Origin: Scenedesmus sp. ARA3
Taxonomy: Eukaryota; Chlorophyta; Chlorophyceae; Sphaeropleales; Scenedesmaceae
Assembly (NCBI GenBank): GCA_004335835.1
Contig: RWJK01001659.1
Location: forward strand, 49,643 to 113,642
DNA: 64,000 nt
Reading direction: 5' to 3'
Shown here: positions 1,947 through 63,939 of the stretch, piece after piece
Layout of the letters: each line of letters starts with the position of its first letter
Numbering within the stretch: the first letter of the stretch is position 1
The notes under the pieces: model-generated
The model's database searches: none
The model's input: the letters and a program-made list of their open reading frames with translations, nothing else
What the model was told of the DNA's origin: nothing
Position numbers and translations under genes: made by a program

Positions 1947-4900
1947 TCAAGGCGCGGAGAGGTTCTCCTGGGGGTAGCGCCTCCCCAGCAGCAGCACACA
2001 GCCACAGCGCAGCACCTCACAGCCCCCAATGAGCCCAGCCAGCAGCCAGGGGCTTGCTGTGATTGCTGCATGCTGCGCAGCGAAGGCGATGCCGCCCACC
2101 AACACCATTGCCACTGCAGGCAGGACAGCAGCAAGGCGGAGTGTGTGGTGGGCACTTAAAGATAGCAGCACATCATGTGGCAATTGTGAGCTGCAAGCTT
2201 CAAGCAGGTACAAGTGGGTGGCCAGTGCCACCAGCTGCAAATCTTGCTAAGACACAAAACGGCCTGCACCGGTGAGTGCATGCGCCGTTGTAAAATGTGC
2301 AGTTGGCAAAGGCAGACAAATAGCATGCAGCGCAACCTCCAATGCATGCGCATCATCCTAGCTAACTTACAATGCATCTATCAGCAACTCCAGTCGCACC
2401 TGATCCGATCATGATGCCCAGGCACTGCCACATGCTAATCACCTCGTGCAAGTGCACATCCTAGCAAATGCTTTACAGCATCAGCACTCCCAAGCCCACC
2501 TGATCCATTCATGATGCCCAGGAACTGCCACATGCTAACTACCTTGCGTGAAGGCAGCGTCACAAAGCCAGCCAAGCCCAGGATGCTGCTGCGGCCGCCC
2601 ATGGCCAGGTCCAGCAGCGCAGACACGCCAACATCACACCTGCTAGTAGCAGCAGCAGCAGCAGCATTTGATGATGGGAGCAGGTGCTGCTGCGGCCGCC
2701 CATTGCCAGGTCCAGCAGCGCAGACACGCCCAGCATGACACCTGACACATGTCAGCAGTTGTGGCAGCAGCAGCAGCAGCAGCATTGCAAGCATACTACA
2801 CTCCTCAACACACAATGTAACAGTTCATGTACAAGGCAGAAGGTTGATGATGAGAGAGAATGCTGCTGCGGCCACCCATGGCCAAGTCCAGCAGCACAGG
2901 AACACCAAGCATCACACCTGACCAGCTGCAGCAGCAGCAACAGCACTGAAGAGTGCATTAAATTGACCTGCTGGGTCCATGGCTTTAGATTGTTTGAGTG
3001 CGCTGCTAAAGCAGACTGTCCAGAGTTGCCACCGCACTGCCGTCAAAGTCTGCGGACCATAAGCATTAGCCCTGATACTGGATGCCCTAATGAATGACCT
3101 GTGACAGCAGCAAAATGCTTCTGCGCACCTGTAGGCAGGTGAGCCAGCAGCACAGCCGCCTTCAGCGCCTGATGCAGTGGTAGCCCAGCCAGCAGCAGCA
3201 TGGCCCCATTCAGGTGCAGCTCAGCAACACTGCTTGACAGTGCACGCCAGTTCCACAGCACCGCAGCAGCACTGCAGCCGAATGCAATAGCCTGGAATGA
3301 CGCCAGTGCTGCCAGGCTGTCAGTGATTGCTACCACCAGGAATCCGGTCAGCAGCAGCGCCAGGGTGTTGCAGGTGCCGGCAGCGAGGGATAGCCAGAAG
3401 CAGCTGCATAGAATAGAGCAGAACGGGAGCAGAATAAACAGGGGGAATAACGTTCAGCGTCAGCTATGTTCAGCACGTTTTCAACTTTCAGGGTTGGGAC
3501 TGTCTGCTGAAGCAAGGAAATACGGCAAGCCCAGGTTGCATCACCGTATTGCCAGCACATGCGCTTGTACGAATGTTCACCCGAACAGCTGGTGCAAATG
3601 GCTGGGGCACACGGCATGCTACAACTTGCAGCATGCCAGTGAAGGAAGCAACAGTTTGCACCACAAACCAACCTGAGGTGCTGCAGCAGAGCCCACTGGC
3701 GCCTACAGCTCAGCTGCATGTGGTGGTAGGCCTGTGTCACACAGTGAGAGCAGCACGTTCCAGTGATGCACAACCCGGTCACCACCCTGAGGTGCTGCAG
3801 CAGAGGCCACTGGCGCCTACAGCTCAGGTGCATGTGGTGATAAGCCTGAGTGATGCCAGCAGGGCTGCACAGCCAGGCGGCAATGGCCACAGCCACCAGC
3901 AGCGCACAGCCGGCCAGCAGCTGGTGCGGTAGATCTAGAGAGCTTGATGCTGCTGCGGCGGCGGCCATTGCTGCTGCCAGCAGGCTGTACTTGACGCACT
4001 CGCTGAGGGTGAGCATGCTGCGGCCGACCTGTTGTGGAGTGCATCAGAGGCAGATGCGTCAGCATGCAGTGAACACAGCAGACACGCAAGAAACATTGCC
4101 AGTTTTGGCTTCACATGTTGAGTTTATACAACCTACGCAGCCTGGCTCCCGGTGTGTACAATCATTGCTCGCAAAGACAAACAAGACGATCTGCTGGTCA
4201 ACGAGTTTGGTTTCAGATGATATGCATCAAAATCACCACCAGATTTTATTACCCTCTCTCCAAGTGTGCTGCACCCACCTCAAAGACGTCCACCTCCTCT
4301 TGTCCCAGCAAGCCCATTCTCATGACCGGGGCAGCCACCAGGTTCACACAACCCACCAGCCACACAGCCAGCGTTACAATGCTGCTGGCATACAGAGCCA
4401 CAAAGGCCAGCAGGTAGGCAGCAGCCACTGCCAGTGCTGCTGCGCGGATGTAGGTGGCGGGCTTAAGCTTGGCACCCAGCCAGAACCACAACGATGCAAA
4501 GGCTGCAACAGAGCGGCAGCGTAACAGATACACAGGACAGTGCAAGGGTGAGTGTGAAAGATGTAGGTGGCGGGCTTCAGCTTGGCACCCAGCCAGAACC
4601 ACAGCGGCGCAAAGGCTGCAACAAAGCGGCAGCGTAACAGATGCACAATCAGAGCAGTGCCAGGGTGAGTGTGCAAGCTCTAGGTGGCGGGCTTGAGCTT
4701 GGCACCAAGCCAGAACCACAGCGGCGCAAAGCCTGAACAAACAGACCGGCAGAGTAACAGATGCGCAGAGCAGTGCAAGGTTGGGTGCAACATTTGTTGC
4801 CTGGTCGCTGCAAGCGTAGGGTGGAGCTGCTGCAATATCTTCATCATTCAGAAAATGTGCAGCTGAAGATGTGCTCTTTGATCAGCAGCAGCCTCACCTA

Positions 4901-5133
4901 TGCTGATTGCAAATACAAGGAACCTGGCTCAGCTTGAAGCTGGTGAAAGGATCTGTTCAAAAGGCACTTTTGTTTTCTTTGACTAGAATCTGCAAGCTCA
5001 CCTGTGCTGAGTATGGCAAAGCCAATAAAGCTGGGTGCAAGCAGGCGCATGCCGCGGGGCAGCCAGGGCAGTATACTGTCCTGCAGGTGCAGCCCATACA
5101 GCGGCCTGGAGCCCACCAGCACGTCCTGCAGAT

Positions 5134-5164
<31 letters not shown>

Positions 5165-7011
5165 TGTAAGAAGCTAGGCAGCCACGCCAGCAGGTTTTCG
5201 TGCAGGTGCAGCCCACGCAGCCGCCTGGAGCCCACCAGCGCGTCCTGCAGCATGAAGCAGCGGCAGCATATCGGTAGTGCTAGGTTAGTAACGAGTGCAG
5301 CAGTTTGTCCTGCAGGTGCAGTTTGCACAGCAGCCCGGAGCCCGCATGCACATCCTGCAGCATGAAGCAGCAGCAGGGGCAGCAGCAGCAGCATGAAGCA
5401 GCAGTACAGCAATGACGACGGCACATTAGCAGAGCCCAGGTGCATTTATGTTGCAGGCTATTTATGTCTCCATCCAACAGCCACACCTCGTAATGTTGCA
5501 GGTGCAGCAACACCAAGCTACAAATTGGAACAAAATGCCTCTAAAGCAGTCCTCAAAGCCGCACCTCCAGCAGCACGAAGCTCAGCAGCAGGATGCCAGG
5601 GCCCAGACTGAATGGCAGCAGCACCACCAGCAGCCTGTTGCTCAGCCGCTGCTGCCAGCTGAGCCGCTGACCAGGGCCATCGCTGCATTGCTCAGCACTG
5701 CCACCACCTGCCATAAGTCGCGGCGGCAGCTGCTGCAGCCGGCTGCTGCGCTTGCAGCTGAAGCTGCTCAAGATAGCAGCGCAGTCCACTGACACCGAGC
5801 CATTGCGGTTGTCAGTGCTGCTAGAGGAGTGCTTTGCTGCTGCTGTTGTGCAGCTCTGGTCGGTGAGTGTGGCAGCAGCGGTGTCTTTTGGGGCAGTGGC
5901 AGCAGCAGCGCCAGTGCCTGCTGCTGCCGTGCCCTCGTTGCAGCGCTCCCACTTTTTGGCGAAGAAGCTGGCAGCGTGCTGCTGCTGTTGCTGCTGGGCT
6001 TGACGGACCTCCTTGGCCTGCCTGAAGCAGCGGTCCACCTGCGCAGGCAGGTAGGTAGAAACAGCCAGGCAGGTATGCTCGGAATGCATGTGCGACATCC
6101 ATCTCGCACTTTCTACGCATCAGAAGCAGGCAAGCTGCCCGAGCCTTTTCTGCCTTTCCTGTATGTGCAGTCTGGGAAAAGAGACGCAACTGAACATAAG
6201 AACTGGTGCAACAAAGGCAATGACAGTCAATTCACGTGTTTCCAGGTGTCAGCGTACGCGCCCAGCATGCCTTCTACAGGGAAGCGCCTCGCCAGCGCCT
6301 GCGCTGTCATGCTGTGCCGGTCCGAGACCGTTAGCGCCATGGCAGCATCAACAGCAGCCTTAAACTTGCGCGCCAGGTGGCCCAGGTGGCTGGCCCGAGC
6401 GGTGAAGTACACCCTGCAATTTGCGGCAAAACAGCAGCAGCGGAGAAGTGGCAGGAGCTGCACCAAGCAGAGGCTGAGACATCAAGGTAAGTGACAAGCA
6501 GTGACAGGCAGACTTCTTGCATTGCATTGACATCCTGCCACTTACAACCCCAAAAACGTGGCGTCTCACACACTCACCAGGGCATCCTGCCCAGCCGCCT
6601 AATGTTGCTCAACACCCCTGACAGGAACATGCCATGCGTGCCTCACCCTGGCACCTTGCCCAGGCCTACTGTGTCGTGGCCAATGACCAGGCAGCCAGAC
6701 TGACAAACCCTATGCTGAGCCCTGGTGCCTAAGTTTGCATAAAACCCTCAAAATACTTGTGACACTCACCCCGGCACTTTTCCCAAGCCTCCTGTGTCAT
6801 GGCCGATGACGAGGCAGCCTAACCAACATTCCCCAAGCTGAATCCTGGTGCCTAAGTTTGCATAAAACCCTCAAAATACTTGTGACACCCACCCCGGCAT
6901 CTTGCCCAGGCCTCCTGTGTCGTGGCCAATGACGAGGCAGCCATTCCAGCCAAACCCAATGTCCACCAGGCCGCCTGGGGGTGGCAGCAGCAGCAGCAGC
7001 AGCAGCAGCAG

Positions 7012-7044
<33 letters not shown>

Positions 7045-10000
7045 TGAGTGAGAAAAATTTGCCTGGTATGTGTGTGGCCCCACAGGTATCATCAAAGGCC
7101 TTGCTGATGTGTGGAGTCTCCTCAACAAATGACATTTGAGTGTACTACCACCAACTGTTGACCGCTGGTACGAAACTTCAGCGCACCCAAACATGCCTCT
7201 AGCTGTTGCCTGCCAGGCTGTTGACAGACGGCAGATGGCTGGATGACGTACATGGCTCAAACCGGCTGGGCAGCAGGCAGAAGTCCGTAGCGCGCAGCAG
7301 CAGCTCCTTTGCGCCCATCCATCAACGACACCACCCCTCAGCCAAATAACCGACTCACAATAGCGCCACTCACATGGCTCAAACCTGCTGGGAAGCAGGC
7401 AGAAGTCAGTGGCCCGCAGCAGCAGCTTCTTCTCAGCGCCAGCCACGTAGCGGTCCAGCGGGCAGAACATACGCCCAGGGAAGGCCCCTGACAGCTGCAA
7501 CGAACACAGCTTGGCGGCTGCTGCGCTGCCAACAGGGTCACCTGCACATGCACATGATGTGTGGAAAAGGAGCACAGGCAGGCAGCAGGCAGGGTCATTA
7601 GCAATCCAGGCAGCTGCAGCGCACACAGCTTGGCAGCAGCAGCGCTTCCAATGGGGTCACCTGATGTGTAAAGATACAAGCACAGCAGGCAGGGGAAGCA
7701 TGGTGACAGGCAGGTTCAGCATTGCATACGTATGTGTTTTTGCATTGACACAAGTGTATTGGGGTGTGCTGCTGTGGGCTGTGTTCCTGGCTGAATGCAA
7801 CATAGCTGAAGCTGAGCGCTTGCCAACAGTATAAGCAGCAGACGCACAAACGCAAGCCGGGTATGCATGTGAACTCTGAGCAGCGCTGCATGCAGTACAT
7901 GGCATACTGCAAACCTCATCTGAGCGACAGCCCGAGCTGAGCTGGTTGCAGCTTCCAATCCTTTCAGGTGTTAGTGGTGGCGTATGCCGCGCAAGGACAC
8001 CCGTGTCACCCCCCCCCCTCCTCTATTGCAAGCCTGGCATTGCACGCGTTGGGCGCACCTGCTGGGCCCACCACCACCAGCTGCAGCACCGGGTGCCTCG
8101 CCAGAAGCGCGCCAATGACATCCACACATTTCTGCTGAGTAAGGTTGTACGGTTGTACTGCTGCCCAGAAAGCTGAGTATTTGTCAACGCCTTGAGCATC
8201 AAAACACACACGCACAAGCCAAGCAGGCAAACCTATAGGCCACTGAACAGAGCAGCACTGCTTGCAGCTACCCCAGCCCAACCCATTCACCTGCCGGCCC
8301 CACCACCACCAGCTGCAGCAGCGGGTGCCTCGCCAGCAGCGCCGCCGCCGCCTCCGCAATCACATCCACGCCCTTCTGCTGCGTCAGCCTCCCCACAAAG
8401 GCCGCCAAGCTGTACTGCTGCCCCCTTGACAGCCCATACAGCGTCTGCAGCTGCACTTTACAGCTTGATTTGAGGGCAAGGACGGCATCCAAGCTCATGG
8501 AGTCGTCTGCTGCCAGGCTGTCTGAGGTGTCCAGGGCGTTGGTGATGCCTCGCATGTGGGTGGCGTCTGGGCGGCCGAGGGGCACCAGGTCCCAGAAGCA
8601 GGACAGCTTCTTACTGATCTGTGCAGCGTACCTGCGGCGATTTGTTTCAAGTGAAGCAGCACGTCAAAAAAGGCAGCGACAGCTTGGAAAACCACAGCAG
8701 CGCTTGCACGCCATGCTGTGCAGCGCATACAAAGCAGAGCAGTTCCCAACAACCTTTCTTCCAACAGCATACATATGTAGGATATGCTGTAAAAGGCAAC
8801 TGCACACCTAGGCGAGACTGCCACCACGCCGCAGCCGAGCTGGTGCAGCCGCATGTGTTTGACTGCGCCGCGCAGCACGTCCAGGGCGCCGTTGTGCTCT
8901 GTGAGAGGGGCTGCCTCGGGGGTGAGGTTGAGGTGCTCGTACACCTGCACGGCGTTCAGCAGCAACACAACAGGCAACCAGCGAGCATCTCACGACAACC
9001 CGAGTACAGAGCTGCTGCTTGTCTTTGCAGCGGTGCCACACCGTACAATCACTTGCCGCACAGAGAGCGCACTGCAGGTGCCATTGAGCTTTAGTGGCAG
9101 CATAGGCATGCCACGTTTGCATACGAAATGCTAAGTGGTGGAGCTACATTATGCATGAAATCCTCACGACGCTGCGCCAGCCACAGCCTGTGGCTGTCAT
9201 GCGCAGTATGCTCCTGCGGTGCAAAAGGCATCAGTGTGTCACCTTCCTCATACCATAGGATTATAACAAACAGCAGCCAACCCAACCAGACCAGACAGCG
9301 CGCAACACGGTGTGGTCAACAAAGGCAACCGGCGTTGTGTGCAGCAGAGGAACCGCCAGCCCTGAAATAGATTACCTCCAAGCATGATCAGGAATTCACA
9401 AGGAGCACAACGGGGTACTAGTAACAGCATCCGTGACATCACGCACACAGACCTTCACTCACCCGCAGCACCTTCTCCAGTGCAATCACCATTGGGAAGC
9501 TGAACGCACTCGAAGCTCCACCGGCTTTGACAAAGTCTGCCACCACGCCCATTGATAGCGAGATATTGTCCACGAGGAACAGCTCCCCCACAGTGAAGGA
9601 GCTGTTGCGGATTTCAGACGTTAGCGCAGCACACAAGGACTGCATGCAAGTGTGGCGTGTTTGGAGGTAGCAGGAGGTAGAAGCGGCAGGAGCGCGCAGG
9701 CGGTAAGGCAGGTGAGTGAGAGACAGAACACAAAGGCCGGGAGAGGATAGGAAGCTGAATACGCTTGAAGCTCTGCCTGCTGTGACAGTTTCCGCAACCA
9801 CGCGCATTGACAGCGAGATGTTGTCCATAAGAAACACCTTCCCCACAGTGAACGTGCTGTTGCTGATGCTGGCCGTCAGTGCAGCACGGAAGGACTGCAC
9901 GGGCGAGCGGTGTTGACAGAGGAAGCAGGGGCAGGAGTGTGCAGGCAGGCAGGCAGGTGCAGTGAGCGGGAGCACACACACAGGTGGGGAGAGGTTGATG

Positions 10001-11404
10001 TGCTGTCGCTGATGCCGGCAGTGACTGCAGCGCGGAAGGCTTGGCATGTGGCAGGTAGTTGCCAGGTATGACAGAGGCAGGCATGTGCAGGCAGGCAGGT
10101 GGCGGGTTGCAGTGAGAGGTCCAGTCTGCTTCTTATGGCAGTGCAACCTGGACAACAACCCCAAGCAACTTACTGCTTGCTGCGTGCTGTTTGAAGCCGG
10201 AGCATGTTGCAGGACATGCTGCACAAGCTGTGCAGCAACACTACAGGCCACAGAGCAAGCGGCACCTTCCAGCTGCTTGAAGTTGCTTGACTGCTTCATA
10301 GCACATGGTGCTAGCTTGCAAGGTTGAATTGGGTGGCTGCTGAAAACGAGCTAGGAGGAATCTAGGGCTTTGCTTACTGTGTCGGAGTGACCTGCAGCAT
10401 CCAGTCGCAGCCCATCAGGCTTGTACGCAGCCAGTGTGTGGTCAAACACATGCTGCATGCGTGTCAACACCCCAGGGCTGCTGTGGTTGAGGTCAGGTAG
10501 GCCAGACCTGAACCAGGCGCAGCCCATCTACATGTGATGTGAGCTGAACTATTGTAGGTTATTGTTGATTAGTTTCTTCAAAGCTTTCAACTCTGCTTTG
10601 CTTACCGTGTCGGAGTGCCCTGCTGCATCCAATTGCAGCCCATCAGGCTTGTACGCAGCCAGCGTGTGCTCAAACACCTGCTGCATGCGGGACAGCACCC
10701 CGGGACTGCTGTGGTTGAGGTCAGGTAGGCCTGCCAGCTTGCAGTGCTTGAAGCTGGCTGCTGCTGCTGGGCTGGCAAAGATGCCTGCTGGGTCTATGTC
10801 GCAGTAGGGGCCGTAGCAGCCTGCAGCAGGTGGCGAGAGGCACAAAAGGGCACACATGCAAGCGACGAAAAGCGCACAGTGGCAAAAAAGCACGCCCATG
10901 TTCATAAGCAAAGCCAGGAGAGGTTTTGCAGCAGTGCCGTGTGCAACGATGGTGGCCTACTGTGCACAGTCACCACTTGCAGCTGCAGCAGGCAGCAGCG
11001 CTTGCTGATCAGCCATGTGCTGCCTCAAATTAGGCGGGAAGTTGCTGCATTACCAGCAACATTTGCAGCTGCTGCTGCAAGCGGGATCATCAAGCTCACC
11101 GTTGCAGTCGTGGTAGTCGCTGCTTGCATTGAAGGGGTTGAAAGATGACACGTCACCATGGCCCATGTGATTGATGACCATGTCAAACATGACCAGCATG
11201 CCACCTGTGACAGTGTGAAGGGGCAGATGCAGGCGGTGCAGTGGGTGCATTGTTGTCAAATGCTGATCACAGGAGCAGCAACAGGCGACAGAACAGGTGC
11301 TGGTGCTGCTGATATAAGAGCACTGCCAGCTGCAGATCGGGGTAGAGGCAGCTGCTGCAGCAGTCCAGGGGCTGCCTGTACGAGTCAACAGCCTGCAGTT
11401 GCTG

Positions 11405-11446
<42 letters not shown>

Positions 11447-11567
11447 TGCTGTTCACATGTGGTGCCTGGCAGTAGTGCATGGCTGCGAGCTGAAGAGTGA
11501 GGGAGTACCCTTGCCAGCTGACAGACCAGCAACAAGCATGTTACAATCAGGAGGTGACAAGTAGGCG

Positions 11568-11602
<35 letters not shown>

Positions 11603-12931
11603 CAGCTCCATACATGCTGCCTGCGGGCATGCTCACTGTTGTGGCATTTGTGCACCAGCGCCTGCAGCTGCTGCTGGCTGCCAAATGCGGGGTTGAGGGT
11701 GAAGAGGTCTGCTGGCCAGTAGCCATGATAGCCGGCTGCCCCAACAGCATCACTGCCCTGCAGCAGAGACAATGCAGCATGCAAGCAGGTGTCATAAGCA
11801 GCTGGTTTACAGCAACAGCCGCAGATCTTGCAGCATGACACGCACAAATGAAGTAAAATGCAGCACTGCACCTTACTGATGTAACTCGGTGTGCGCGCTG
11901 CTGTCGGGTGGGAACAGTGACAGCTGACACATGCTGGCGTCAGTGTTGCGTCAGCCAGATGCCTCGTACCGCTGCTGGCAATCATCATGCCTGCATTTGT
12001 ATCCATGCAGACTTCTGCTGCTCTCATCCTAGGTGCTCAATGCTGCATTTGAAAATATTATCAGCTCACCTGCTTAGACACCGGGCTGATCCAGACTGCA
12101 TCAAAGCCCATGTCAGTTATGTAATTCAGCCGCTTTGACAGGCCCTCCCAGGTACCGCCACAGTAGCTGTCGAGGTCGCTGCAGGGCTGCCCCCAGCAGT
12201 CCGAGGGAGCAAAGCGGTCCGTGACAACCTGCATGGATATAAATACAAATGACGAAGTGCATTGTGGCGAGGTTTCAGCTGTTGTAAGTGGTCCAAGAGC
12301 ATGTCGTGCATGCCCTCGCACTGTGAGTACTGTGACAGCAGCTTTTGAAGCAGGGCTGCCCCCAGCAGTCCGAGGGTTCAAAGCGGTCCGTGAACACCTG
12401 CATGGATATAAAAGCAACTGACAATTGGGATGTACTGCGCTTTGAAATGTTGTGGAGGTGTGGATGCTGGTTGCATTGCGCTTGCAAGCCGATTGGCAAG
12501 TGCCACTGGAGGACATGTACATGTGTGCATGCATACACAGATGCGCAGAACAAGGCAGGAAGGCAGGCGCGATGCGCTCTGCTGCTCAGACAAATGTGAA
12601 GCACAGCCGCTACATTGGCTTGATGATAGAAGTGAATGTTTTGTCAGTGCATTACAGGCTTGTGATCTATGTATGCAGCTGTACAGCACAGGCGCTGCGC
12701 TGCATGCCAGGCGACACACCATGGTTGTGTGCCTAATTGCAGGAGACAACAGCCTGCCCCAATGTCTTCCAAGCCTCGTAAGCCGTCAAAACACATCCCA
12801 AAATCAAACACTCGCACCTGGTAGATCGTGCGGGAGCGCCACTCATCAGCTGGGGCTGCGTGGGCAACTGGAGCAAAGCTCGCTGCCGCAAGCGACAGGC
12901 CCAGGAGCAGGCTCAAGACGAATGATCTCAT
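1947..12931 (-). CDS. Alpha-1,3-glucan synthase-like protein (GH13 + GT5 + multi-TM)
   Basis: Exons on the minus strand, 5' to 3': 12818-12931, 12070-12228, 11637-11757, 11100-11204, 10606-10820, 9463-9639, 9148-9213 (weak donor), 8808-8944, 8291-8631, 7374-7541, 6893-6974, 6236-6413, 5565-6038, 5002-5125, 4279-4502, 3673-4028, 3129-3403, one near 2543-2741 (unresolved) and 1947-2234, about 1230 residues. Residues 1-25 form a signal peptide. GH13 follows, with DEWRSRTIYQ, VTDRFAPSDC, YCGGTWEGL, GYHGYWPADLF and MVINHMG, the nucleophile Asp in DGLQLDAAGH, the acid Glu in VGELF and a probable third Asp in AHDSHRL. GT5 follows, with VSPRYAAQI, FVGRLTQQKGVDVI, LVVVGPAGD, SRFEPCGLVD and TGGLGKMPG. 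A serine/alanine-rich linker and about ten hydrophobic segments end the protein. Fungal Ags1/Mok1 have this domain order and export alpha-glucan to the wall, but are about twice as long; here the GT5 N-lobe and part of GH13 are missing. Function in the alga is inferred. Confidence 0.75.
2543..2917 (-). repeat. Three partial copies of a membrane-segment exon
   Basis: Copies encoding a LLDLAMGGRSS core lie at 2543-2639, about 2683-2741 and about 2868-2917, each with an acceptor on its right. Only the first has a good donor (GTAGTT) and the SSILGLAGFVTLPSRK end, but it is 97 nt where 98 would keep frame between the neighbouring exons. Copies 2 and 3 have the in-frame 5' half (VMLGVSALLD, VMLGVPVLLD) but no clear donor. 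Which copy or combination is spliced is not settled. Confidence 0.65.
3673..3860 (-). repeat. Tandem duplication inside a coding exon
   Basis: Two copies of an AYHHM(H/Q)LSCRRQW(P/A)LLQHLR block lie in one open frame. Only the donor after the second copy (AG then GTTGGT) gives the phase needed by the next exon at 3129-3403, so both copies appear to be kept in the protein. Confidence 0.55.
4279..4740 (-). repeat. Exon-edge copies, 4279-4502 exon
   Basis: The 5' end of the exon (FASLWFWLGAKLKPATY) recurs upstream at about 4563-4620 and 4684-4735 as FAPLWFWLGAKLKPATY, each copy running into intron instead of the rest of the exon. Confidence 0.75.
5002..5370 (-). repeat. Exon-edge copies, 5002-5125 exon
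   Basis: The 5' part of the exon (DVLVGSRPLYGLHLQD) recurs at about 5180-5255 (DALVGSRRLRGLHLHE) and 5300-5360 (DVHAGSGLLCKLHLQD), with decreasing similarity. Only 5002-5125 has both splice sites in phase. Confidence 0.75.
6575..6974 (-). repeat. Exon-edge copies, GT5 GGLGKMPG exon
   Basis: The 3' half of exon 6893-6974, its donor and the following intron recur at about 6770-6825 and 6645-6700, with a remnant near 6580-6600. The copies lack the acceptor half of the exon. Confidence 0.75.
6984..7043 (+). repeat. (CAG)n tracts
   Basis: About 60 bp of CAG repeats broken by one GTGG. On the sense strand of the glucan synthase this is a (CTG)n tract just before the CCACCCCCAG acceptor of the 6893-6974 exon. 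Confidence 0.9.
7230..7662 (-). repeat. Exon-edge copies on both sides of the GT5 exon 7374-7541
   Basis: A copy of the 3' part (LLLRATDFCLLPSRFEP) lies downstream at about 7235-7310. A copy of the 5' part (GDPIGSAAAAKLCALQL) lies upstream at about 7604-7662. The complete exon lies between them. Confidence 0.75.
8046..8190 (-). repeat. Partial copy of the GT5 exon 8291-8631
   Basis: The 3' end of the exon with its donor recurs as GALLARHPVLQLVVVGPAG, preceded by a degenerate version of the FVGRLTQQKGVDVI segment (PYNLTQQKCVDVI). It has no usable acceptor in phase. Confidence 0.75.
9463..10040 (-). repeat. Copies of the GH13 catalytic-Glu exon
   Basis: The complete exon is 9463-9639 (FTVGELFLVDN). 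A longer copy at about 9750-9896 keeps the acceptor and reads FTVGKVFLMDN, so the catalytic Glu is Lys; it lacks the donor end. A third, more diverged 5' fragment lies near 9985-10040. Confidence 0.75.
10378..10820 (-). repeat. Copies of the GH13 nucleophile exon
   Basis: The complete exon 10606-10820 reads DGLQLDAAGH. A partial copy at 10378-10507 keeps the 3' half and donor and reads DGLRLDAAGH, with the Arg that is normal for GH13. Splicing the copy in after the full exon would put a stop codon in frame. Confidence 0.75.
11407..11445 (+). repeat. (CTG)n tract
   Basis: About 13 CTG units inside a glucan synthase intron. The sense strand reads CAG and the tract is not at an acceptor, an exception to the usual placement in this window. 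Confidence 0.9.
12070..12400 (-). repeat. Partial copy of the GH13 exon 12070-12228
   Basis: The 5' end of the exon with its acceptor and adjoining intron recurs at about 12345-12394 (VFTDRFEPSDCWGQPC). It lacks the rest of the exon and a donor. Confidence 0.75.
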
Positions 12932-13333: not shown

Positions 13334-13338
13334 TTACA
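13334..13338 (-). terminator. TGTAA polyadenylation signal, TASH3
   Basis: TTACA on the plus strand, about 590 nt past the TASH3 stop at 13930. I found no closer TGTAA. Confidence 0.4.
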
Positions 13339-13860: not shown

Positions 13861-13929
13861 GGACACAAGCGTGCAAGAAAGAAAACAAGCGTGCACGCTG
13901 TCCACTAAAGCCACGAAGGACAGCGGCCC

Positions 13930-16088
13930 TTAGAACTGCTCGACATCCACATAAGAGCTAGGCACCAGCCCCCGCGCTCCATCGCCGTCCCTTGCCACAG
14001 CGTACCAGCCGTCCACCTCGGACTCCACCCACAGCGAGTCACCCACTGCCACGCTGAGCTCGCCCTCGGCTTCGGCATCAAATGCGTACAGCACGCGCAC
14101 CTGCACTCGGCAGCAGCAGCAGCAGTAGCAGCACAAATTGTGAATTCAAAAGCAGCATGTGCATAGCCGCCCACTGCCACGCGGAGCTCGCCCTTGGCCT
14201 CCGCATCAAATGCGCACAGCAGGCGCACCTGCAGCGACACAGCACATGCAAAACATGCAGTGATGTGAAGCTTGAAAAAACAATGGCAGCAGCATCACTT
14301 AACTAACGTGGGCCTGCGCATCGAAAGCGTACAGGACGCCCAGCTACAGCAAAGCACGTGGAAACAAACACAGCATGAACAGCAGCACTAGCAGTAGAAC
14401 CTGTCAGTTGCTGTTGCGCCTTGACTGGCGTCCACGGCATACTGGTACATGCGCCCCACATTGGTGGGCTGGTACTTGTACTCCTCCCTGCTCCAGCCTC
14501 CGATGCAGCATAGCCCCCAGCCGCCTCGCCAGCACCACCACATCACAACAGCAGCTCGGCAGACGACCGTCATTATATCAGTCACTGATTACTGAAACCA
14601 AAAAAAATGCAGTACAGTGCCATACACACCTTGGTAGGCTGGTGCTGGTACTCCTCCCTAGCTCCAGCTTCAGACGCCGCGTAGCCTCCAACAGTCTCGC
14701 CCTGATTACTGAATCCAACCAAACTGCAGTACAATGCCACACACACCTTGGTGGGCTGGTGCTTGTGCTCCTCCCCTGCTCCAGCTTCAGACGCCGCATA
14801 GCCTCCAACAGTCTCGCCAGCACCACCCACAACAACAGCAGCTCACCAGATAAACATCTGCTAGTTACTAGTGATTGGCCAATCGCAGGGGAACATCACG
14901 TGACCAATAACAATGCCATACACACCTTGGTAGGCTGGTACTGATACTCCTCGCCGCCTCCAGCCTCCGATGCTGCATACCCTCCCGCAGTCTCGCCAGC
15001 GCCGCCAGCAGTACTGCCTGCATAGCCCGCCTGCCTATCCCTATCCCTAGGTGTAGCCATAGGAGAGCCTCCAGCAGCAGCAGCAGCAGCAGCAGCGGGG
15101 CCGCCACCCATTGCGTAGCGCCGTGCTGCTTCCAGGCGGTCCTGGCCTGCTGCTGCACGGTCGATCATTTGGCGGCGCATAGCGCGGGCGTCGCCAGACA
15201 ACTGCAGAGCGGTACGGAGAAATGAATGAGCAAAGTCAGCAGTATGTCGTATGCAGCGTCATGGAGCGCTGCTGCATGTTTGATCGATGTTGCAGCGCAT
15301 CGCCAGGAAGTAGCGCACAGCACACAGAGCACACTCGGCAGTCCGAGCAGCATTTAGTTGTGCTTGGCATGAGGCAGTGACTGCACTGCTGCTGTTGCTG
15401 CTGCCGCTGATGTTTCAAACAAGCACAGACCCCTATAGATTTGGCCAGCTAGCCCCCAAACCGGCCCACCTGCAGTGCATCCAGGCTGGCGATCGCCCGC
15501 CAGGGCCTCCCCCAACCGCCTCACCTGAACCTCAAACTGCTTAAAACCCCACAGAAGCCTAGCCCATCCAACCCCAGCGCACCTGCCGCGAGTCCAGGCA
15601 GGCGATGACGCCTGCCATGCTCAATCCACCAAATCCTAGCCCACACCCCACACTGCTTGAAACCTCACAGAACCCTAGCCCAAAACCCTAATTCAAACAC
15701 CCCAGCCCACCTGCAGCGCGTCCAGGCTGGCGATGACGCCTGCCAGGGCATGCTGATTCACTGAGCCCTATCTCAAAACCCAGACTGCTAAAACTTCTGA
15801 GACGTAACCCAAAGGTAACACCCACCTGCAGTGCCTCCAGGCTGGTGATGAAGCCTGCCAGGGCATCCCACAGACACCCCACAAAAGCCCCAGACTGCTG
15901 AAAACCCCACAGAACGCAAGCCCAATAAACCCCAGTCGACCCACCTGCAGTGCATCCAGGCTGGCGATGACACCCGCCAGCGCCTCCTGCAGGTGCAGCG
16001 CCTGCGGCTGGTTGAAGCCGCCAGCCCCGCGCGTGGCCGCCTCCAGTGCCTCAACCTGGCATACATACACAGCAGCAGCAGCAGCAGC

Positions 16089-16125
<37 letters not shown>

Positions 16126-16690
16126 ATGAAAGAACCGCCAGGTGCATACAGCAGCGCGAGGTGCAGCAGCCGCCGGCACCGCGCATAGCTGCCTCCAGCG
16201 CCTCCACCTGCAGCGGGGGAAAGCAACAAACATACACAGTACTTGCGTCAGCAGCAGTAGCGTGTACAGCAGCTGCCAAAGCCGCATGTAGCCGCCTCCA
16301 GCGCTTTCACATGTAGGAGGGCAATTCAATCACACAGCAGCGTAATCAACAGCAAAAACCTCAACATGGCAGCATACGGGTTCAAAAGTCTGTACTACCT
16401 GTAGTAGCAGCAGTAGCACAGACCAGCAGCATTCTGATGCTATCTCATGGTGATTGGAGCAACACGGAAAAACAGCAGAAACTTTGCACAAAGTCAACAC
16501 ACACCAGGCACACGGAGCACAATGCATGTACATCGGTGCTGACAATGGGGGTATTCATCTCGATTCCACTGACCTGCTCCAGCGCCGTGTCCAGCTCCCC
16601 GCCGCGCTGCGCCACCAGCGCCACCATGCGAGCCATGCCAGCAGCATCCACAGGCTCACCAGTGTCTGCTTCCTCAATGCTGCGCCTGCA

Positions 16691-16721
<31 letters not shown>

Positions 16722-16829
16722 AAAGAGGCACAGTCAAGGTGATGGTGTGATCTGCCGTGCCCGCAGCATCCACAGGCTCGCCGCTGTCTGCTTCCTCCAA
16801 CGCTGCGCCTGCAGCAGCAGCAGCAGAGG

Positions 16830-16869
<40 letters not shown>

Positions 16870-17199
16870 TGTTAGCGCCACCATGCGCGCCATGCCCCCA
16901 GCATCCACGGGCGCCCCGCTGTCTGCTTCCTCAACGCTGCGCCTGCAGCAGCAGCAGCAGAGGAAGCAGCAGCAGCACAAAGAGGCACAGTCAAGGTGAT
17001 GGTGTGATCTGCCATGCCCGCAGCATCCACAGGCTCACCACTATCCGCCTCCTCGACGCTGCGCCTGCAGCAGCAGCAGCAGCAGCAGCGGCAGCGGCAG
17101 CAGCAGCAGCAGAAAGATACAGAGTCAAGGTGATGGTGTGATCTGCCATGCCCGCAGCATCCACGGGCTCGCACTATCTGCCTCCTCGATGCTGCGCCT

Positions 17200-17230
<31 letters not shown>

Positions 17231-17312
17231 GCACAGTCAGCGGGGTAAAGTCATTTCAATTGACAGCAGCATCAACAGGCTCCATTGCGTCTGCCTCCTC
17301 AACGCTACGCCT

Positions 17313-17358
<46 letters not shown>

Positions 17359-17464
17359 TGCAGCGTGCTTGGCAGCACCATGCACATGCCCTTTCCCTGT
17401 ACAGTACCCGCTTCCTCAGCACAGCAGCAGCTTGCAATTGGTATGTAGCAACAGCTCCGGCTGG

Positions 17465-17495
<31 letters not shown>

Positions 17496-25430: not shown

Positions 25431-25485
<55 letters not shown>

Positions 25486-42100: not shown

Positions 42101-42402
42101 CAAACTGGCAGCATCGCAGCAGCGCCCAGCCAACATTGACGGCAATTGCGCAGGCCCCGGTATATTAGCAATGCCGGCTTAATGCCTCATGTATGCAGCA
42201 GGTGGCGTCGCAGCAGATGCAGAGCTGTCAAACCTGTTGCGCTTCCGCTGCTGTGCGCTGCAGGCTGACTCCCTACCTGTCAAGCCTGTCCACCTCGCAG
42301 CTCAAGCTGCTGACGATTTATTACAACAGGACGCTGGCCAGCAACAAGCAGCAGCGGGCCATGGCAGGTAGCGCTGAGCAGCAGCAGCAGTGCGGGTACT
42401 GA
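33153..42402 (+). CDS. CLASP: CLASP, TOG-domain microtubule-associated protein
   Basis: Twenty-two exons join in phase, 1613 residues: 33153-33233, 33399-33488, 33743-33835, 34086-34157, 34363-34556, 34747-35257, 35497-35639, 35934-36059, 36281-36407, 36595-36738, 36985-37228, 37428-38034, 38201-38528, 38726-38815, 39006-39159, 39319-39484, 39709-39814, 40026-40967, 41160-41327, 41536-41697, 41938-42092, 42264-42402. TOG1 covers about residues 1-230 (WNHKHWKVRHGLLQF, AVRDAAIECLEEVY), TOG2 about 350-608 (ELRVELERITSTL, DWEKR, AVARQAAHMYEVL) and TOG3 about 890-1095 (DWKDRVEKLEALAEVL, NPNIRQMAGRAL). Long Ser/Ala/Gln-rich linkers separate them, and a C-terminal helical domain follows (about 1380-1613). 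The order and motifs fit plant/animal CLASP, which binds microtubule plus ends and promotes rescue at the cortex and in the spindle. Exons are clean, with no duplicated edges. The start ATG is the first in the exon and directly precedes the TOG1 helix. Confidence 0.92.
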
Positions 42403-47448: not shown

Positions 47449-48120
47449 GGTTACACGCTCAGCCCCTGGTCCCGCTGCTTCCGCAGCACGTCACCCACGC
47501 TGCCGTTGCGACGCCTGCTGTCAGCCAGCATCGCCTCCCTGCTGCCGCCTTTGTCTCGCTTGGTGCGCTGATACCAGCCCAGCTCCTGAAATAAGGATGC
47601 ACCCTTGGCATATGAGCCTGCCCCTGGCTGCCCAAAAAGCAATCAAGACCGCACAAAGTGCTAGCGGAACATGCATCTGCGTCACACTTCCATTAGCCCC
47701 GCAGACAAAACAGACGGTCTGTCATACGCTCAGCCCCTGGTCCTGTTGCCTGCGCAGCACGTCACCTACGCTGCCGTTGCGCCGCCTGCTGTCAGCCAGC
47801 ATTGCTTCCCTGCTGCTTACATCTCCTCTCCCTCGGTGTGCTTGCAACCAGCCCAGCTGACATTTGTGGCATTTGAGTCTGCCCCCGCCAGCTGGCTCCC
47901 CAATTGAGCAGCCAGGACAGCGCACAAAGTGCTAGCAAAGCATGCATATGCGTCACACTTCAACAGCCTCTCATATGTGTATAAGAACGAATTTACACAT
48001 CCTCCGAGTCCTCACGGAGTGTGTACAAATGGTCTGTTACACGCTCAGCCCCTGGTCCTGCTGCTTTCGCAGCACGTCCCCTACGCTGCCGTTGCGCCGC
48101 CTGCTGTCGGCCAGCATTGC
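47449..48120 (-). repeat. Three tandem copies of a terminal exon, each with stop
   Basis: The last coding segment of the NTF2-like gene, SREAMLADSRRRNGSVGDVL followed by a short tail ending LSV and a stop, occurs at about 48037-48125 (used), 47720-47812 and 47451-47545. All three keep a stop at the same place. Only the first is joined to the rest of its exon. Confidence 0.8.
47993..47997 (-). terminator. TGTAA polyadenylation signal, NTF2-like gene
   Basis: TTACA on the plus strand, 40 nt past the stop at 48037. The stop itself (GTG TAA) also makes a TGTAA. Confidence 0.45.
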
Positions 48121-49392
48121 TTCCCTGCTGCCTGCTGCCCGCTTATAAACAGTCACCGCCTTCGCCTGCTTGCTGCCAATGCGTGTCTCTGCTGTAACCG
48201 TCATGCTGCCGTCTGGTAGTAGTGAGTAGAGCTCGGTCAGGGTGCCTGCAGCAGCAACGGCAATGATGGCGGCAGCATTGTCGTCTGCGGCAAAGGGAAG
48301 GTATCAATGGCAGCATGTTTCCAGTGTGGCAGATATATTTGCCGCAAGGCCCATGTTGGCGCTACTGATGCTTCGTCGACAAACACGCAGGTGAGATACT
48401 AACACTAATCAGTGCGATGATGAGCGCTGATATGTTTCGCTCAAACACCCCAATCACTTGAGCGCTCTCACCTGCCAGCGGCGCACCCCAAGCCATCTCC
48501 ACAAGCACGCCCCCCTGATCAGGTGACGCAAGAGCCCTTGCTGCTGCGCTCTGCTGAAACTGACTGACCCCCTCGCCTGCACAGAGCCTACACATACATA
48601 CCGCACCAAGCAAAAACATGCAGAAACTCTCTAAAAGAATGCAGAAACTTTCCAACAACCAGCCCACGTGCAGCACCCTCTCACCTGCCAGCGGGGTGCC
48701 CCAGGCCATCTCCACAAGCACCCCTCGCTGCTCAGCCGAGGTTACGGTCCTTGCCGCTGCGCTCCGCTGGCCCTGCCGCACCTCTCGCCGCCGCTGCTGC
48801 GCTGTGCAATGGTGGTCTGCTGTGTAGTTTCCTTCATACCTGTGAAGCGCCGTTTGTGTACCAGGCTCATTCTGGTGTCCTGCCAACACAACATCAACCA
48901 CATACTTCACCATGACCCTCCCAGCCTCTCACCTGCCAGCGGAGCACCCCAGGCCATTTCCACAAGCACCCCCCGCTGCTCAGCCGAGGTTGCGGTCCTT
49001 GCTGCTGCACTCTGCCGGCCTTGCCCGCCCACCCTCTTCCTGGCTGCTGTTAAAGCTGTTGAATTCGAGACCTGTGGTGTACTTTCCCTGATGTTTAAAT
49101 AGTCCTGGCGTTGTACCAGGCCCATTCAGGTCTCAAGGCAACACAACATCAACCACACAACTCCAAACAAACCCACCCACGCTCTCACCTGCCAGCGGCG
49201 CACCCCAAGCCATCTCCACAAGCACACCCCGCTGACCAGGTGAGGCAACAGTCCTAGCTGCTGCGCTCTGCTGGCCCTGCCGCAGGTCTCGCCGCCGCTG
49301 CTGCGTGCTGCCGCCGTTGATGGGCACTTCTTCAGTGACCTTGAAGAAAGGGACCACTGTCACGAAGCTGACGGTGAACTTTGAACTTGTCT

Positions 49393-49424
<32 letters not shown>

Positions 49425-49507
49425 GCAGCAGGTGAGGGGCACTTCTTCAGTGACCTTGAAGAAAGGGACCACTGTCACGAAGCTCACGGTGAACTTTGAA
49501 CTAGTCT

Positions 49508-49555
<48 letters not shown>

Positions 49556-50338: not shown

Positions 50339-50392
<54 letters not shown>

Positions 50393-52364
50393 GAGCCTGC
50401 TGCTCCGCTGCCTGCTGCAGGTCCTTGATTGCTGGATGCACCTGCACCTGCTCCTGCTGCTGCGCCTGCTGCTGACAGCCGCCGGGCCTTTGCTGCTGCT
50501 ACACGCGCTGCTGCACGCTGCTGTGCTGAAGGTGCTGCTGCTGCTGGCTGCATTGGTTGCAAGGGGCTGCGTGCTGGTGCTGCAGATGCAGCAGAAGCTG
50601 GTGAGTTACCGCTGCTGCTGAAAGTGCTGAAGGTGCTGCCACTGCTGCCACTGCTGCTGCTGCTGCTGCTGCTGCTGGGAGGTGCCACCAAGCCAGCCAG
50701 CGGTTGAAGCAGTGAGTCAACACCTTGCTGCAAGCCCCTGCACAGGCACAGTGCAGCGCAAACCCACAGCAGCGGCAGCAGCACAAGCGGTAGACAAGCT
50801 GATTGGCTTAGGCATTTGTCGCTTACTGCTATACATCCACTGCAGTGTGTCGAACACCCAAATGCTATGTGCAATCAGGGGCCTCTCACCAGCAGCATCA
50901 AGCTCCCCATGATCGCCCTGCGCTGCACCACACGCCAGCTGAGGTCCACTGCTTACAATGTGCAACCACAACTCTCTGTCAACAACACTCGACAACAACC
51001 AGCAGAACACCACACTTGCCAACAACAAATGATCAACACACTGCCGCGCCCACCTGCCTACTTCTTGCAGGCCTGGCAGCACAGCAGGCAGCGGGCCAGC
51101 CAGCCCTGCCACCAGCGGCTGGCTGTAGCTGAGCTTGCATTCTGTCAAATGATGAGATGCATTGCACACTCCAACTGGCGGAACAGCAGCAGCTGCATGC
51201 CCATGCACTTCAACTGCTGTATGACATGGACATCAAACACCAACTAGCAGAAACAACAACAAACACAATGGCAACAGTTCCTGCACCCACCTGCTCACCT
51301 CCTGCAAGCCTGGCAGCATTGCAGGCAACGGCCCTGCCAGCCCCGCCACCAGGGGCCGCACCAGCAGCAGCTGGCTGTAGCTGAGCTTGCATTGTGCCAA
51401 ACATTTAATGCATTGCAAGAATTCATGGCCCTCATCGTCAGCAGCTAGCCCCCAATAATCTGCCTGCGCTGCATGACACACCCTCAACAATAACTAGCAG
51501 CAAACAACAAACGACTACAACAAAAGTAAATGCCGTGCCCACCTGCTCAATTCCTGCAGGCCTGGCAGCACAGCCGGCAGCGGGCCAGCCAGCCCCGCCA
51601 CCAGCGGCCGCACCAGCAGCAGCTGGCTGTAGCTGAGCTTCACAGGGTGCTCATGACACTCCGTGACAGCCGCAATGCGACGGCTGCCTGGCTGCAAAGT
51701 GTAGAGTGCGATGCCTCTGATGAGTAGGGCTTGGCTGCTGGGTAAAATCAGGCGCCTCGTCACAAGGATTGTCATAAGGAAGCAAATGTCATAAGGAAGC
51801 AAACAGCAGCAAAACAACGGGCCACAGCAGGCAACCATGTGAGTGAGGCAAGCGTATGTGTAAGATGCAAGCAAATCTTGATGCGATAAAGGTGCATGCA
51901 GCATTCACCCATGACCACGAGCAGATGGCATGCTGCTGCTCATAGCTGCAATGCGACACAGATGGCAGCCTGCCTCCTGAGGAGAGTGAAGTCTGCATCT
52001 CATTACCAAAGCGAAAGCGTGACATGCCCTGTACTGCAGCTGCTTTTCTTGTGCATAGTGACCATTGCCGTTGCTGCTGCTGCGGTGCTCACCACACCAC
52101 CGTCACTGTGCTGCTCGCTGCGCCTGCCACTGTTTCCAGTTCAAATGCAGCTTCGCGCGGCACTGCTGCTAGCGACTCCACAAAGAAGCTTGTCACTGCC
52201 TGTGAGCAGTCAACAAAACCAAACAACGCAACAAGGTGCAACAGGTATCAGCCAGCGCAGGCATGGCTTCTGAAGCAAGGATTTTGCAGCAAGGCTTCGG
52301 GCTTTCAATGTGACTGGCACTGCGCTGCTTCAGGACAATTATTGCGGCACATTGTGCATTACAG

Positions 52365-52402
<38 letters not shown>

Positions 52403-54264: not shown

Positions 54265-54309
<45 letters not shown>

Positions 54310-55850: not shown

Positions 55851-55883
<33 letters not shown>

Positions 55884-57643: not shown

Positions 57644-57893
57644 GGCAGGCTCAGAGTATATCAATCTGCAGTGCAAGGCAACATTCAGCAGGAGAGCTTT
57701 CATGCCATATGCCTGGGCTTATTGCATGGTTCACTGCGCAGAGGGCTGTGTGGTCCTTGTGCACGAGCGCTGCACAAAGACCACACAGCCCTCTGCGCAG
57801 TGAAGCATGCAATATGCCCAGGCATATGGCATGAAAGCTGTATCTCCTGCTGGATGTTGCTCTGCACTGCAGACTGATGTACTCGAAGCCTGC
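57644..57893. ncRNA. Long imperfect hairpin, candidate small-RNA precursor or foldback element
   Basis: The left arm (about 57644-57763) and right arm (about 57771-57893) are inverted copies around a loop of roughly 7 nt. Arm comparison gives about eight mismatches and one 4-nt bulge over about 115 bp; the apical half is the best paired. Chlamydomonas miRNAs often come from such long hairpins. A transposon-derived foldback is the main alternative. Orientation of any transcript cannot be told from sequence. Confidence 0.55.
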
Positions 57894-62328: not shown

Positions 62329-63939
62329 ATGTTACGCTCCGCGTTGCACTCGCAAAGGCCAGCACTTAGGCCGCACAGCTTTGCAGCAGCAGCACAACAC
62401 CCCCGGGCCCCTAGACGCATGCTGGCTCGCATTCGCAGTGTCAGCACTGCTGAAGCGACCCCACCCGGACTAGCTCCGCTTCCATGGCAGGGAACCCCCG
62501 AGCAGCTGCAGGTGTGCTGGTTGGTGTCCTCAGCATTGGCATGAGCAGAAGCAGCAGCGTAAGCACAGCATAATCATCGACAGCTGCACACACCGCCCTG
62601 TGCAAGGACGGTGGCAGATGGTGCTGCCTGCGGCATGTGTAGTGGTAGCAGCTGCTTTGGCATACATACCCACCACTGTGCAGGCTGGTTTGCTTGCACA
62701 TGGCTTTTGCACTGTGATCGCTGCAGAGTAAGACACACATCTGATTCCACCAGCACATGAAGTCTCAGCAACTTGGGTCAACCGCTTGTTGCAGTAGCGG
62801 CAGCAACAGCAGCAGCAGCACATGCCATCTGACTTGATCATGTTCTTCTGCATTATCGTTTTACTGCCCAATGCCACTATGCCTTCGATTGTGGCTCTCG
62901 CACACACGCTGGCTGCACTTTGATCACCACATCCCCCCAGGCACTAGAGCAGCTTCGCACGCGCATGAGCAAGAATGGGCAGGAGTGCCCGAATGAAGAC
63001 ACACTCAAGTGGTACCTGCGGGACAGGTGCGGCCACATCAGCTTGAATCAGTGCTGTCACATCATGCTGTTCTGTGACATGCTGTGCTGTGCTGTTAATG
63101 TGATGTGCTGTGCTGTGCTGTACGGTGCCGGGCAATGCTGTGCTTCCCAACACTGTGCTGTGCCACACAGTGCTGTGCTGTGCTGTGCTGTGCTGTGCTG
63201 TGCTGTGCTGTGCTGTGCTGTGCTGTGCTGCCCTGCTGTGTCACTAGAGGTGAAAGCTGTGCTGCCACATGTGCTGTGGTATGCTGTGCTATGCTGCCAG
63301 GTACCTTGATGTGGATGAGGCTGAGGAGAAGCTGGCACACTGGGCCTGCAGAATGTTCCTGCTGCCACCTGTTCTGTGCCGCGCGGCAATGCTGTCACGT
63401 GTGCTGCGCTGCACTGCCCCCTGCAGATACTTTAATGTCAGTGATTCACCCTGTTGGCGTGCCGTGCCACAACCTGCTGTGCTGTGCTGCTGCCACCTGT
63501 ATTGTTGACAAAAAGATTGCATGGTGTGCTGCCTGACCCCTGCAAGTACTTTGATGTCATTACGCTGCCTGCTGTGTAACCAACTGCCGCCTGTGCTGCA
63601 CTGCACTGCCCGCTGCAGGTACTTTGATGTGGATGAGGCTGAGGAGAAGCTGGCAGCAACACTCAAGTGGCGGCACGCCTTCAAGTGAGCAGCAGCAGCA
63701 GCAACAGCAGCCACCGACGTCTGTCATTGCAGTTGCAGCGGCAGCAGCAGCTGCATTGGCTACTGCCAGTGCCGCAGCACCTCCACTGTATGTCACCAGC
63801 TGCAGGGAGCGTTCACAGCACACTTTGCACATGCGTCATGACGCAGAGTGGACCACATCACGCTGGATGCCGTCAAAGCCGAGTAACACCACAGGCAAGT
63901 CATTTGTGCACGACCAGCTGGACAACTACCAGTACCAAC

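Follow-up and report, generated by a model that had tools for sequence, protein, structure and literature searches.

The window analysed here is a stretch of 64,000 nucleotides from Scenedesmus sp. ARA3 (bases 49643-113642 of contig C1263, in an assembly of 87.3 Mb and 1567 contigs), and it carries three genes whose models were verified: a TASH3-like gene, a glucan-synthase-like gene and a CLASP/TOG-domain gene (Table 1). The names TASH3 and glucan synthase are working labels, used already in the initial annotation. In the first two genes, short segments that span an exon-intron junction are repeated in direct tandem arrays, leaving partial exon copies with a single splice site next to an exon that keeps both. 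The CLASP gene carries no such copies and serves as an internal control.

The gene models were obtained with a small gene finder seeded with 12 hand-read exons of TASH3, followed by spliced alignment to T. obliquus proteins; the three structures are based on DNA and homology, not on transcripts of the window strain. Both methods were concordant for nearly all TASH3 and CLASP exons, and for the glucan-synthase-like gene a choice was made between them wherever the models disagreed. The protein joined from the predicted TASH3 exons is 97% identical over its length to the T. obliquus protein P0001, 95% identical to P0002, another record of this species, and 86% identical to its counterpart in Scenedesmus sp. 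NREL 46B-D3; in full codons, it differs from P0001 at 6 of 1452 residues. To judge from these proteins, the window strain is T. obliquus or a very close strain. Pfam identifies SH3 in P0001, alpha-amylase and glycosyltransferase domains in P0011, and CLASP/TOG in P0109.

Comparison of the window against itself by BLAST (E value up to 1e-6, low-complexity filter on) returned 94 repeat pairs, all of them direct and less than 800 bp apart, and none inverted. The edge of a used exon is touched by 48 of the 62 pairs in TASH3 and by 16 of the 18 in the glucan-synthase-like gene, i.e. 64 of 80, and the other 16 involve no exon directly; once merged, the pairs form 23 and 12 clusters, respectively, and all 35 reach a used exon. 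Among the 80 pairs of these two genes there are neither whole-exon nor exon-interior copies, and none of the 35 clusters is restricted to an intron. The tandem duplication of exon edges described in the initial annotation is thus real, and three parts of its account were borne out in the two genes: the partial copies have a single splice site, their divergence is graded, and each exon has one copy that is complete. In contrast, the claim that the pattern affects almost every exon was not confirmed, and three gene models were verified, not six: copied edges were found in 18 of the 26 exons of TASH3, in 10 of the 18 of the glucan-synthase-like gene (28 of 44 together) and in 0 of the 23 of CLASP.

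When each exon edge was used as a probe against both flanking introns, acceptor-edge copies were located upstream and donor-edge copies downstream of the used exon in 72 of 75 hits, which is the polarity initially proposed; two of the three exceptional hits come from an 82-bp exon in which both probes overlap. The number of copies per edge goes from 1 to 5, and the two acceptor-edge and five donor-edge copies of TASH3 exon 10 add up to seven, in agreement with the one to seven copies anticipated. With tiles of 60 bases, a copy within 1.2 kb was found for 24 of 49 exon edges in TASH3, 13 of 34 in the glucan-synthase-like gene and 0 of 44 in CLASP; in the first two genes, copies were also found for 0 of 6 and 1 of 6 exon centres, and for 9 of 47 and 3 of 31 tiles in the intron adjoining the junction. 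Mid-intron tiles scored high (85 of 160 and 23 of 74), which is expected if these tiles are the copies themselves.

Adjacent junction copies lie 93-297 bp apart, typically about 120 bp; the 60 spacings from the two genes include 4 below 110 bp, 38 of 110-156 bp, 7 of 165-200 bp and 11 of 228-297 bp. Tandem-repeat calls in the window include periods from 93 to 271 bp, and a clean head-to-tail unit is exemplified by 14585-14701 and 14702-14818 (117 bp, offset 117). The junction spacing has a floor at about 93 bp in the two genes, and the pair offsets show modes at about 120 and 245 bp in the window as well as in the genome sample described below. We estimate that arrays contribute 8296 of the 14295 intron bases of TASH3 (58%) and 2554 of the 7563 of the glucan-synthase-like gene. 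The two copies of TASH3 exon 7 are 97% and 98% identical over the probe, and their intron flanks have no significant similarity. In the exon 4 donor array, a stretch of 107 N (30732-30838) is perhaps an assembly gap caused by the repeats. The 22 introns of CLASP, with 0 copied edges, lie beside the array-rich TASH3, and the dense arrays of the window are in minus-strand genes, an observation that concerns few genes. Arrays are also present in a gene at 47-53 kb predicted by the gene finder only, whose predicted protein, tentatively called NTF2-like in the initial annotation, gave no Pfam hit.

Table 1. Genes and exon-edge arrays of the window (window positions).
Feature	Position	Strand	Basis and remarks
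TASH3-like gene, two SH3 domains	13933..32592	-	26 exons, 18 with copied edge; spliced alignment to P0001, Pfam SH3 on P0001
Glucan-synthase-like gene (alpha-amylase and glycosyltransferase domains in relative P0011)	1950..12931	-	18 exons modelled, 10 with copied edge
CLASP/TOG-domain gene	33153..42399	+	23 exons, 0 copied edges; internal control
TASH3 exon 4 donor-edge array, 107-base N gap inside	30496..30995	-	self-BLAST, edge probes
TASH3 exon 6 donor-edge array, used edge and 5 copies	28959..29728	-	self-BLAST, edge probes
TASH3 exon 7, 1 acceptor-edge and 1 donor-edge copy	28133..28732	-	self-BLAST, edge probes
TASH3 exon 10 acceptor-edge array, 2 copies	26611..26959	-	copy 26894-26941 aligns as P0001 exon
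TASH3 exon 10 donor-edge array, used edge and 5 copies	25726..26655	-	self-BLAST, edge probes
TASH3 exon 15 acceptor-edge array, used edge and 4 copies	22721..23297	-	3 of 4 copies end at common truncation point
TASH3 exon 17 acceptor-edge array, 2 copies	21395..21769	-	self-BLAST, edge probes
TASH3 exon 17 donor-edge copy	20970..21361	-	similar repeat within annotated protein P0002
TASH3 exon 19 donor-edge array, 2 copies	19605..20202	-	tandem-repeat calls, edge probes
TASH3 exon 23 acceptor-edge array, used edge and 5 copies	16617..17383	-	self-BLAST, edge probes
TASH3 exon 24 donor-edge array, used edge and 4 copies	15449..15989	-	self-BLAST, edge probes
TASH3 exon 25 donor-edge array, used edge and 3 copies	14457..15007	-	self-BLAST, edge probes
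Glucan-synthase-like exon 10 donor-edge array, 2 copies, period 123	6642..6961	-	tandem-repeat calls, self-BLAST, edge probes
Glucan-synthase-like exon 14 acceptor-edge array, 2 copies, period 113	4447..4787	-	tandem-repeat calls, edge probes
Further arrays, gene-finder-only gene	47450..49547	-	tandem-repeat calls, self-BLAST
Another array, same gene-finder-only gene	50985..51640	-	self-BLAST

The glucan-synthase-like model is less certain at exons 3811-4028 and 2500-2642 and at the gap between 9463 and 8944. At this gap, between exons 9639-9463 and 8944-8808 (window 8945-9462), the gene lacks coding sequence for about 530 residues (298-830 of P0011), and a 373-residue piece of the absent part has only partial matches of 45% and 36% elsewhere in the assembly; a deletion, an assembly loss or a differing gene model may account for it. 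The alignment to P0013, the relative from NREL 46B-D3, is poor upstream of 8944, and that part was excluded; in this protein a GAFILST-like heptapeptide occurs about nine times from residue 783, where the exon 13 donor edge falls. At exon 17 (2642), upstream acceptor-edge copies at about 2921 and 2745 rival the acceptor presumed to be used, located after a CTG run, and it is uncertain which acceptor copy is in use. CAG/CTG trinucleotide runs are very numerous in the window (e.g. 16617-17383 and 50340-50677); the CAG repeats misled unsupervised codon training, and the seeded model was used instead.

The pattern extends beyond the window. In a sample of 21 other loci (186,945 bases including about 16,800 N), where the exons are gene-finder predictions only, 96 local direct pairs and no inverted ones were found, with the same size classes of about 120 and 245 bp. 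Array density is very uneven, given that 5 of the 21 loci have none. From a total of 53 clusters, 47 touch a predicted exon and 44 (83%) span a predicted junction, 3 touch an exon without spanning a junction, and 6 touch no predicted exon; a copy was found for 58 of 375 predicted exon edges. Equal duplication rates away from exon edges, which the initial annotation regarded as contrary to its proposal, were not observed: clusters lying only in introns were absent from the two genes, and those touching no predicted exon were the 6 mentioned above. Dispersed repeats were not detected within the window or any sampled locus, where no direct pair is more than 1.5 kb apart and no pair is inverted, and the DNA of the one array searched genome-wide matches only itself in the assembly.

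Similar copies were seen, at the protein level, in other records by means of a diagonal scan (self-BLASTP returned none). The annotated T. obliquus protein P0001, encoded on a 5.1-Mb contig, includes the exon 10 acceptor copy as in the window at 26894-26941, with an offset of 16 residues; this is the one additional exon of P0001, and it was omitted from our TASH3 model. In P0002 the exon 17 donor edge is present twice inside the annotated protein (offset 27 residues), and P0011, on a 5.07-Mb contig, has a 26-residue partial repeat in the part of the gene that the window lacks, displaced by 78 residues (234 bp if read through), a repeat not checked against DNA. The same scan revealed no edge repeats in P0004 and P0005, which belong to other species (71% and 69% identical) and have names like those of transcript open reading frames. 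Two T. obliquus protein records with such copies and a third with a similar repeat would make an assembly artefact unlikely. The initial suggestion that the copies are raw material for new exons is made reasonable by their presence inside the annotated P0001 and P0002, in which their splicing is predicted.

A geometric null was obtained by placing the 60 observed spacings at random on the genes with their arrays removed (CLASP as it is). Placements spanning a single junction represent 64% of those tolerated in the glucan-synthase-like gene, 71% in TASH3 and 74% in CLASP; exon-interior placements represent 9-16% of all random placements, and this class is absent from the two genes. Intron medians after array removal are 210 and 277 bp, those of copy-free introns 290 and 265 bp, and that of CLASP 207 bp; introns with copies are therefore similar to copy-free introns once their arrays are removed, and the arrays account for the extra length. 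It follows that many duplications of 120 bp, given this geometry, are expected to yield mostly edge copies, and the 83% of the genome sample is only slightly above the expectation of 64-74%. We do not infer targeting from the dominance of edge copies, because copies lying only in an intron are free to diverge over their whole length and should become unrecognisable sooner; this dominance does not prove that junctions are targeted.

We consider it likely that the arrays result from frequent short tandem duplications, a filter imposed by what the gene tolerates, array turnover with sequence exchange, and decay of the unused copies. Tandem duplications of short units, typically of about 120 bp, would arise often in this genome, for instance by fill-in repair of staggered breaks followed by unequal exchange, and a gene would survive a duplication only if one intact coding path is left. 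With exons of about 160 bp and original introns of about 210-280 bp, a tolerated unit of 120 bp would usually span exactly one junction; the copy contiguous with the exon would stay in use, and the other, left with a single splice site, would become an edge copy, located upstream of the exon if it carries the acceptor and downstream if it carries the donor. Such arrays would then grow and shrink, exchanging sequence among copies, and the unused copies would decay, with an exon part recognisable for longer than the intron part because the used partner is held by selection. Only the full exon would be spliced in T. obliquus. Overall, the phenomenon is real and widespread; both the type of mutation and the type of consequence are known, and it is the density that is uncommon.

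The observations on which this explanation is built are the direct tandem arrays, their position at junctions, their spread over the genome sample and the single-junction geometry, together with an amino-acid change that is faster in copies than in used exons and site conflicts that fit exchange among copies. In TASH3, copies and used exons differ in 13.6% of 1136 codons, in comparison with 2.0% between the used exons of the window and P0002; 105 amino-acid changes are unique to the copy while the outgroups agree with the used exon, and in 3 the outgroups side with the copy, counts in which rows from one array are not independent. Indels are present in 30 of 69 copies, and 40 of the 44 indels are frameshifting. 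Four-gamete conflicts affect 33 of 55, 48 of 171, 67 of 153, 39 of 91 and 26 of 55 site pairs in the five arrays tested, and show exchange or repeated mutation in all of them. At edges with at least two copies, private changes at codon positions 1, 2 and 3 number 54, 47 and 74, and all other changes 31, 30 and 90; these counts, and those of the ratio of nonsynonymous to synonymous changes (dN/dS), omit three other-side hits and three hits of the glucan-synthase-like exon 17 that have no phase. The codon pattern fits copies that were for long part of a functional exon and decayed later; they would be snapshots of the used edge, or else edges that belonged to other alleles.

Several observations weigh against frequent duplication followed by decay. 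All 35 clusters are at used exons, where geometry predicts 64-71%, and one sampled cluster (L018, 4226-5365) lies within a predicted 4-kb exon, hence exon-interior repeats do occur. The 60 copies that reach the junction in TASH3 and the glucan-synthase-like gene all keep their AG or GT (15 of the 75 hits are omitted as lying on the other side, at the exon 17 acceptor or short of the junction), whereas neutral decay simulated with the copies' own first-plus-second-position divergence (mean 0.085) loses 9.5 sites on average, and 0 of 2000 runs were as low as 0; moreover, the splice-site scores of the copies are nearly full (6.46 versus 6.62 in used sites). This retention was not repeated in the genome sample, where 10 of 77 sites are lost versus 11.1 expected, or 4 of 56 versus 7.0 if only the firmer exons are considered, an expectation obtained by a rough scaling of total divergence on exons that are predicted only. 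The intron flanks are significantly similar in just 13 of 31 hits with an exon identity of at least 90%, in a test whose power is limited by short spacers, and they have diverged far more than the copied exon parts; at donors, the ungapped identity deeper in the intron drops to 0.3-0.6. The ratio of third-position changes to the mean of first and second positions is 2.18 (bootstrap 1.8-2.7), at or above the value of about 2 that is the maximum for a copy neutral from birth, and dN/dS is 0.25 both between used exon and copy and between copies. Finally, the explanation does not account for a unit length of about 120 bp or for a CLASP gene free of arrays. Most of these difficulties would be eased if the duplications arose by unequal exchange between diverged alleles.

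Of two further inferences about the copies, one was weakened and the other rejected. Strong constraint, as read from pairwise dN/dS, counts the changes of the used exon several times, and a minimal-change count weakens it. In-frame use of the copies would favour extensions in multiples of three, found in 25 of 59 versus 19.7 expected and not clearly enriched, and only 5 of the 59 extensions are open and in frame.

A bolder proposal, which we regard as unlikely, is that the edge copies are banks of spare exon edges kept under exon-like constraint, through splicing control or through array contractions that reuse the spares; if this were true, a broken spare would be a hidden load, and the arrays a standing and renewable pool of splice sites. 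It is rather improbable that the copies are selected as working splice edges, be it as decoys that tune splicing or intron retention or as spares used after array contraction. The intact sites with nearly undiminished scores, the dN/dS of about 0.25 and the greater divergence of the intron flanks would be accounted for in this way, as would the donor positions, where agreement with the used site is 91% at +3 and +5 as compared with 66% at +4 and 60% at +6. However, 24 of the 60 site-keeping copies carry frameshifting indels, private changes are only mildly rich in third positions, amino acids change far faster in copies than in used exons, an in-frame extension free of stops is possible for few copies, as mentioned above, and the loss of sites at other loci is what decay predicts.

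Quite improbable, too, is an origin of the copies from edges once in use in diverged alleles and placed beside the present edge by unequal haplotype exchange, in which case they would still have been functional when most of their divergence arose. It would agree with the two-phase codon pattern, in which shared differences are third-position-rich and private ones less so, with the site conflicts within arrays, and with 14 rows in TASH3 exons 6, 14, 17, 23 and 25 where copies carry the amino acids of the used exons of P0002; in addition, the related NREL 46B-D3 genome is likely diploid with separated alleles, according to the passages of its report considered here (PMC7955037). Nonetheless, the outgroups share the state in 7 of the 14 rows, for which ancestral retention suffices, and are uninformative in the other 7; no second allele of TASH3 exon 16, the one exon searched, was found in the assembly, and a synonymous difference of about 0.3 between copy and used exon would require very diverged alleles.

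A duplication process directed at exon junctions, for instance through breaks associated with transcription or splicing, is very unlikely: the excess of clusters reaching used exons over the 64-71% expected, and the 44 of 53 sampled clusters that span a predicted junction, are what it predicts, but intron-only copies decay on both sides and should drop from view sooner, the 83% of the sample is little above 64-74% with 6 of 53 clusters touching no predicted exon, and CLASP has introns and junctions yet no copies. An assembly artefact, in which pieces of other haplotypes, or reads, were inserted in series, deserves almost no credit, since a unit of about 120 bp that resembles short-read or k-mer lengths, the N gap inside an array and the likeness of the copies to functional alleles are outweighed by the exon 10 acceptor copy that P0001 shares at the residue level, the exon 17 donor-edge repeat of P0002 and the partial repeat of P0011, by the 5.1-Mb and 5.07-Mb contigs that encode P0001 and P0011, and by the exon 15 array, three of whose four copies are truncated at one point, as would be expected of a true array. 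The serial insertion of two haplotype paths was rejected separately: under it, acceptor copies should come ahead of donor copies in an intron, and in the introns with both types (7 in TASH3 and 2 in the glucan-synthase-like gene) the donor copies precede the acceptor copies.

Intron gain or growth by duplications that cross a boundary is usually argued from single cases, and this genome holds many of them, of many ages, side by side. The arrays also constitute a natural set of near-identical competing splice sites, useful to ask how the right one is chosen, and they are a warning for annotation, given that gene predictors may call edge copies exons and two database proteins seem to contain such calls. 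In the open-access literature, at the level of titles and abstract openings, no report of such arrays in Scenedesmaceae was found.

Tandem exon duplication, including that of mutually exclusive exons, leaves adjacent exon-like copies with graded divergence. The arrays are alike in their adjacent graded copies and differ in that whole-exon copies were found in 0 of 80 pairs. Small tandem duplications have reportedly been surveyed in rice by Vaughn and Bennetzen; the trait of short tandem arrays, direct and adjacent local copies, is present in the window and in the sample. In cultured cells, small tandem duplications arise by fill-in at staggered breaks (PMC8355091, in the passages considered); those described there are likewise direct, short and local, with clean head-to-tail joins and no inverted copies, whereas so narrow a unit length, close to 120 bp, and so high a density are in our reading unusual, and the same source is only proposed for the arrays. 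Introners, as presented in part of PMC9860276, also change intron content on a mass scale, but the dispersed shared sequence that characterises them is absent here within the pieces compared. For the NREL 46B-D3 genome, described as likely diploid, the word 'intron' does not appear in the main text of the report (PMC7955037).

The initial annotation knew of no process giving this pattern; short tandem duplication is nevertheless well described, the geometry yields 64-74% of single-junction placements, and a boundary-crossing case is available in the potato RdRp gene, where a tandem duplication across one intron-exon boundary made a new intron (PMC4974935, in the passages considered here). These passages, like those of PMC8355091, describe no arrays at the density found here. 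The exonic AGGT duplication model of intron gain (Rogers 1989; Gao and Lynch 2009), as described in the same part of PMC4974935, shares with the arrays an internal tandem duplication that provides splice sites, and differs in requiring a purely exonic unit, found in 0 of 80 pairs in the two genes and in one sampled cluster inside a predicted exon. The potato case is closer: the unit runs from the final part of an intron into the beginning of the following exon, which creates an additional acceptor along with a partial copy of the exon, and units spanning one boundary were likewise found in 64 of 80 pairs at used edges and in 44 of 53 sampled clusters; the copy in P0001 is, as in potato, part of the annotated protein. 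In contrast, in those passages potato presents one event with splicing proven by RNA-seq, whereas the algal arrays comprise 35 clusters in two genes in addition to the sample, occur at acceptors as well as at donors, reach 5 copies per edge, and are known from DNA and annotations.

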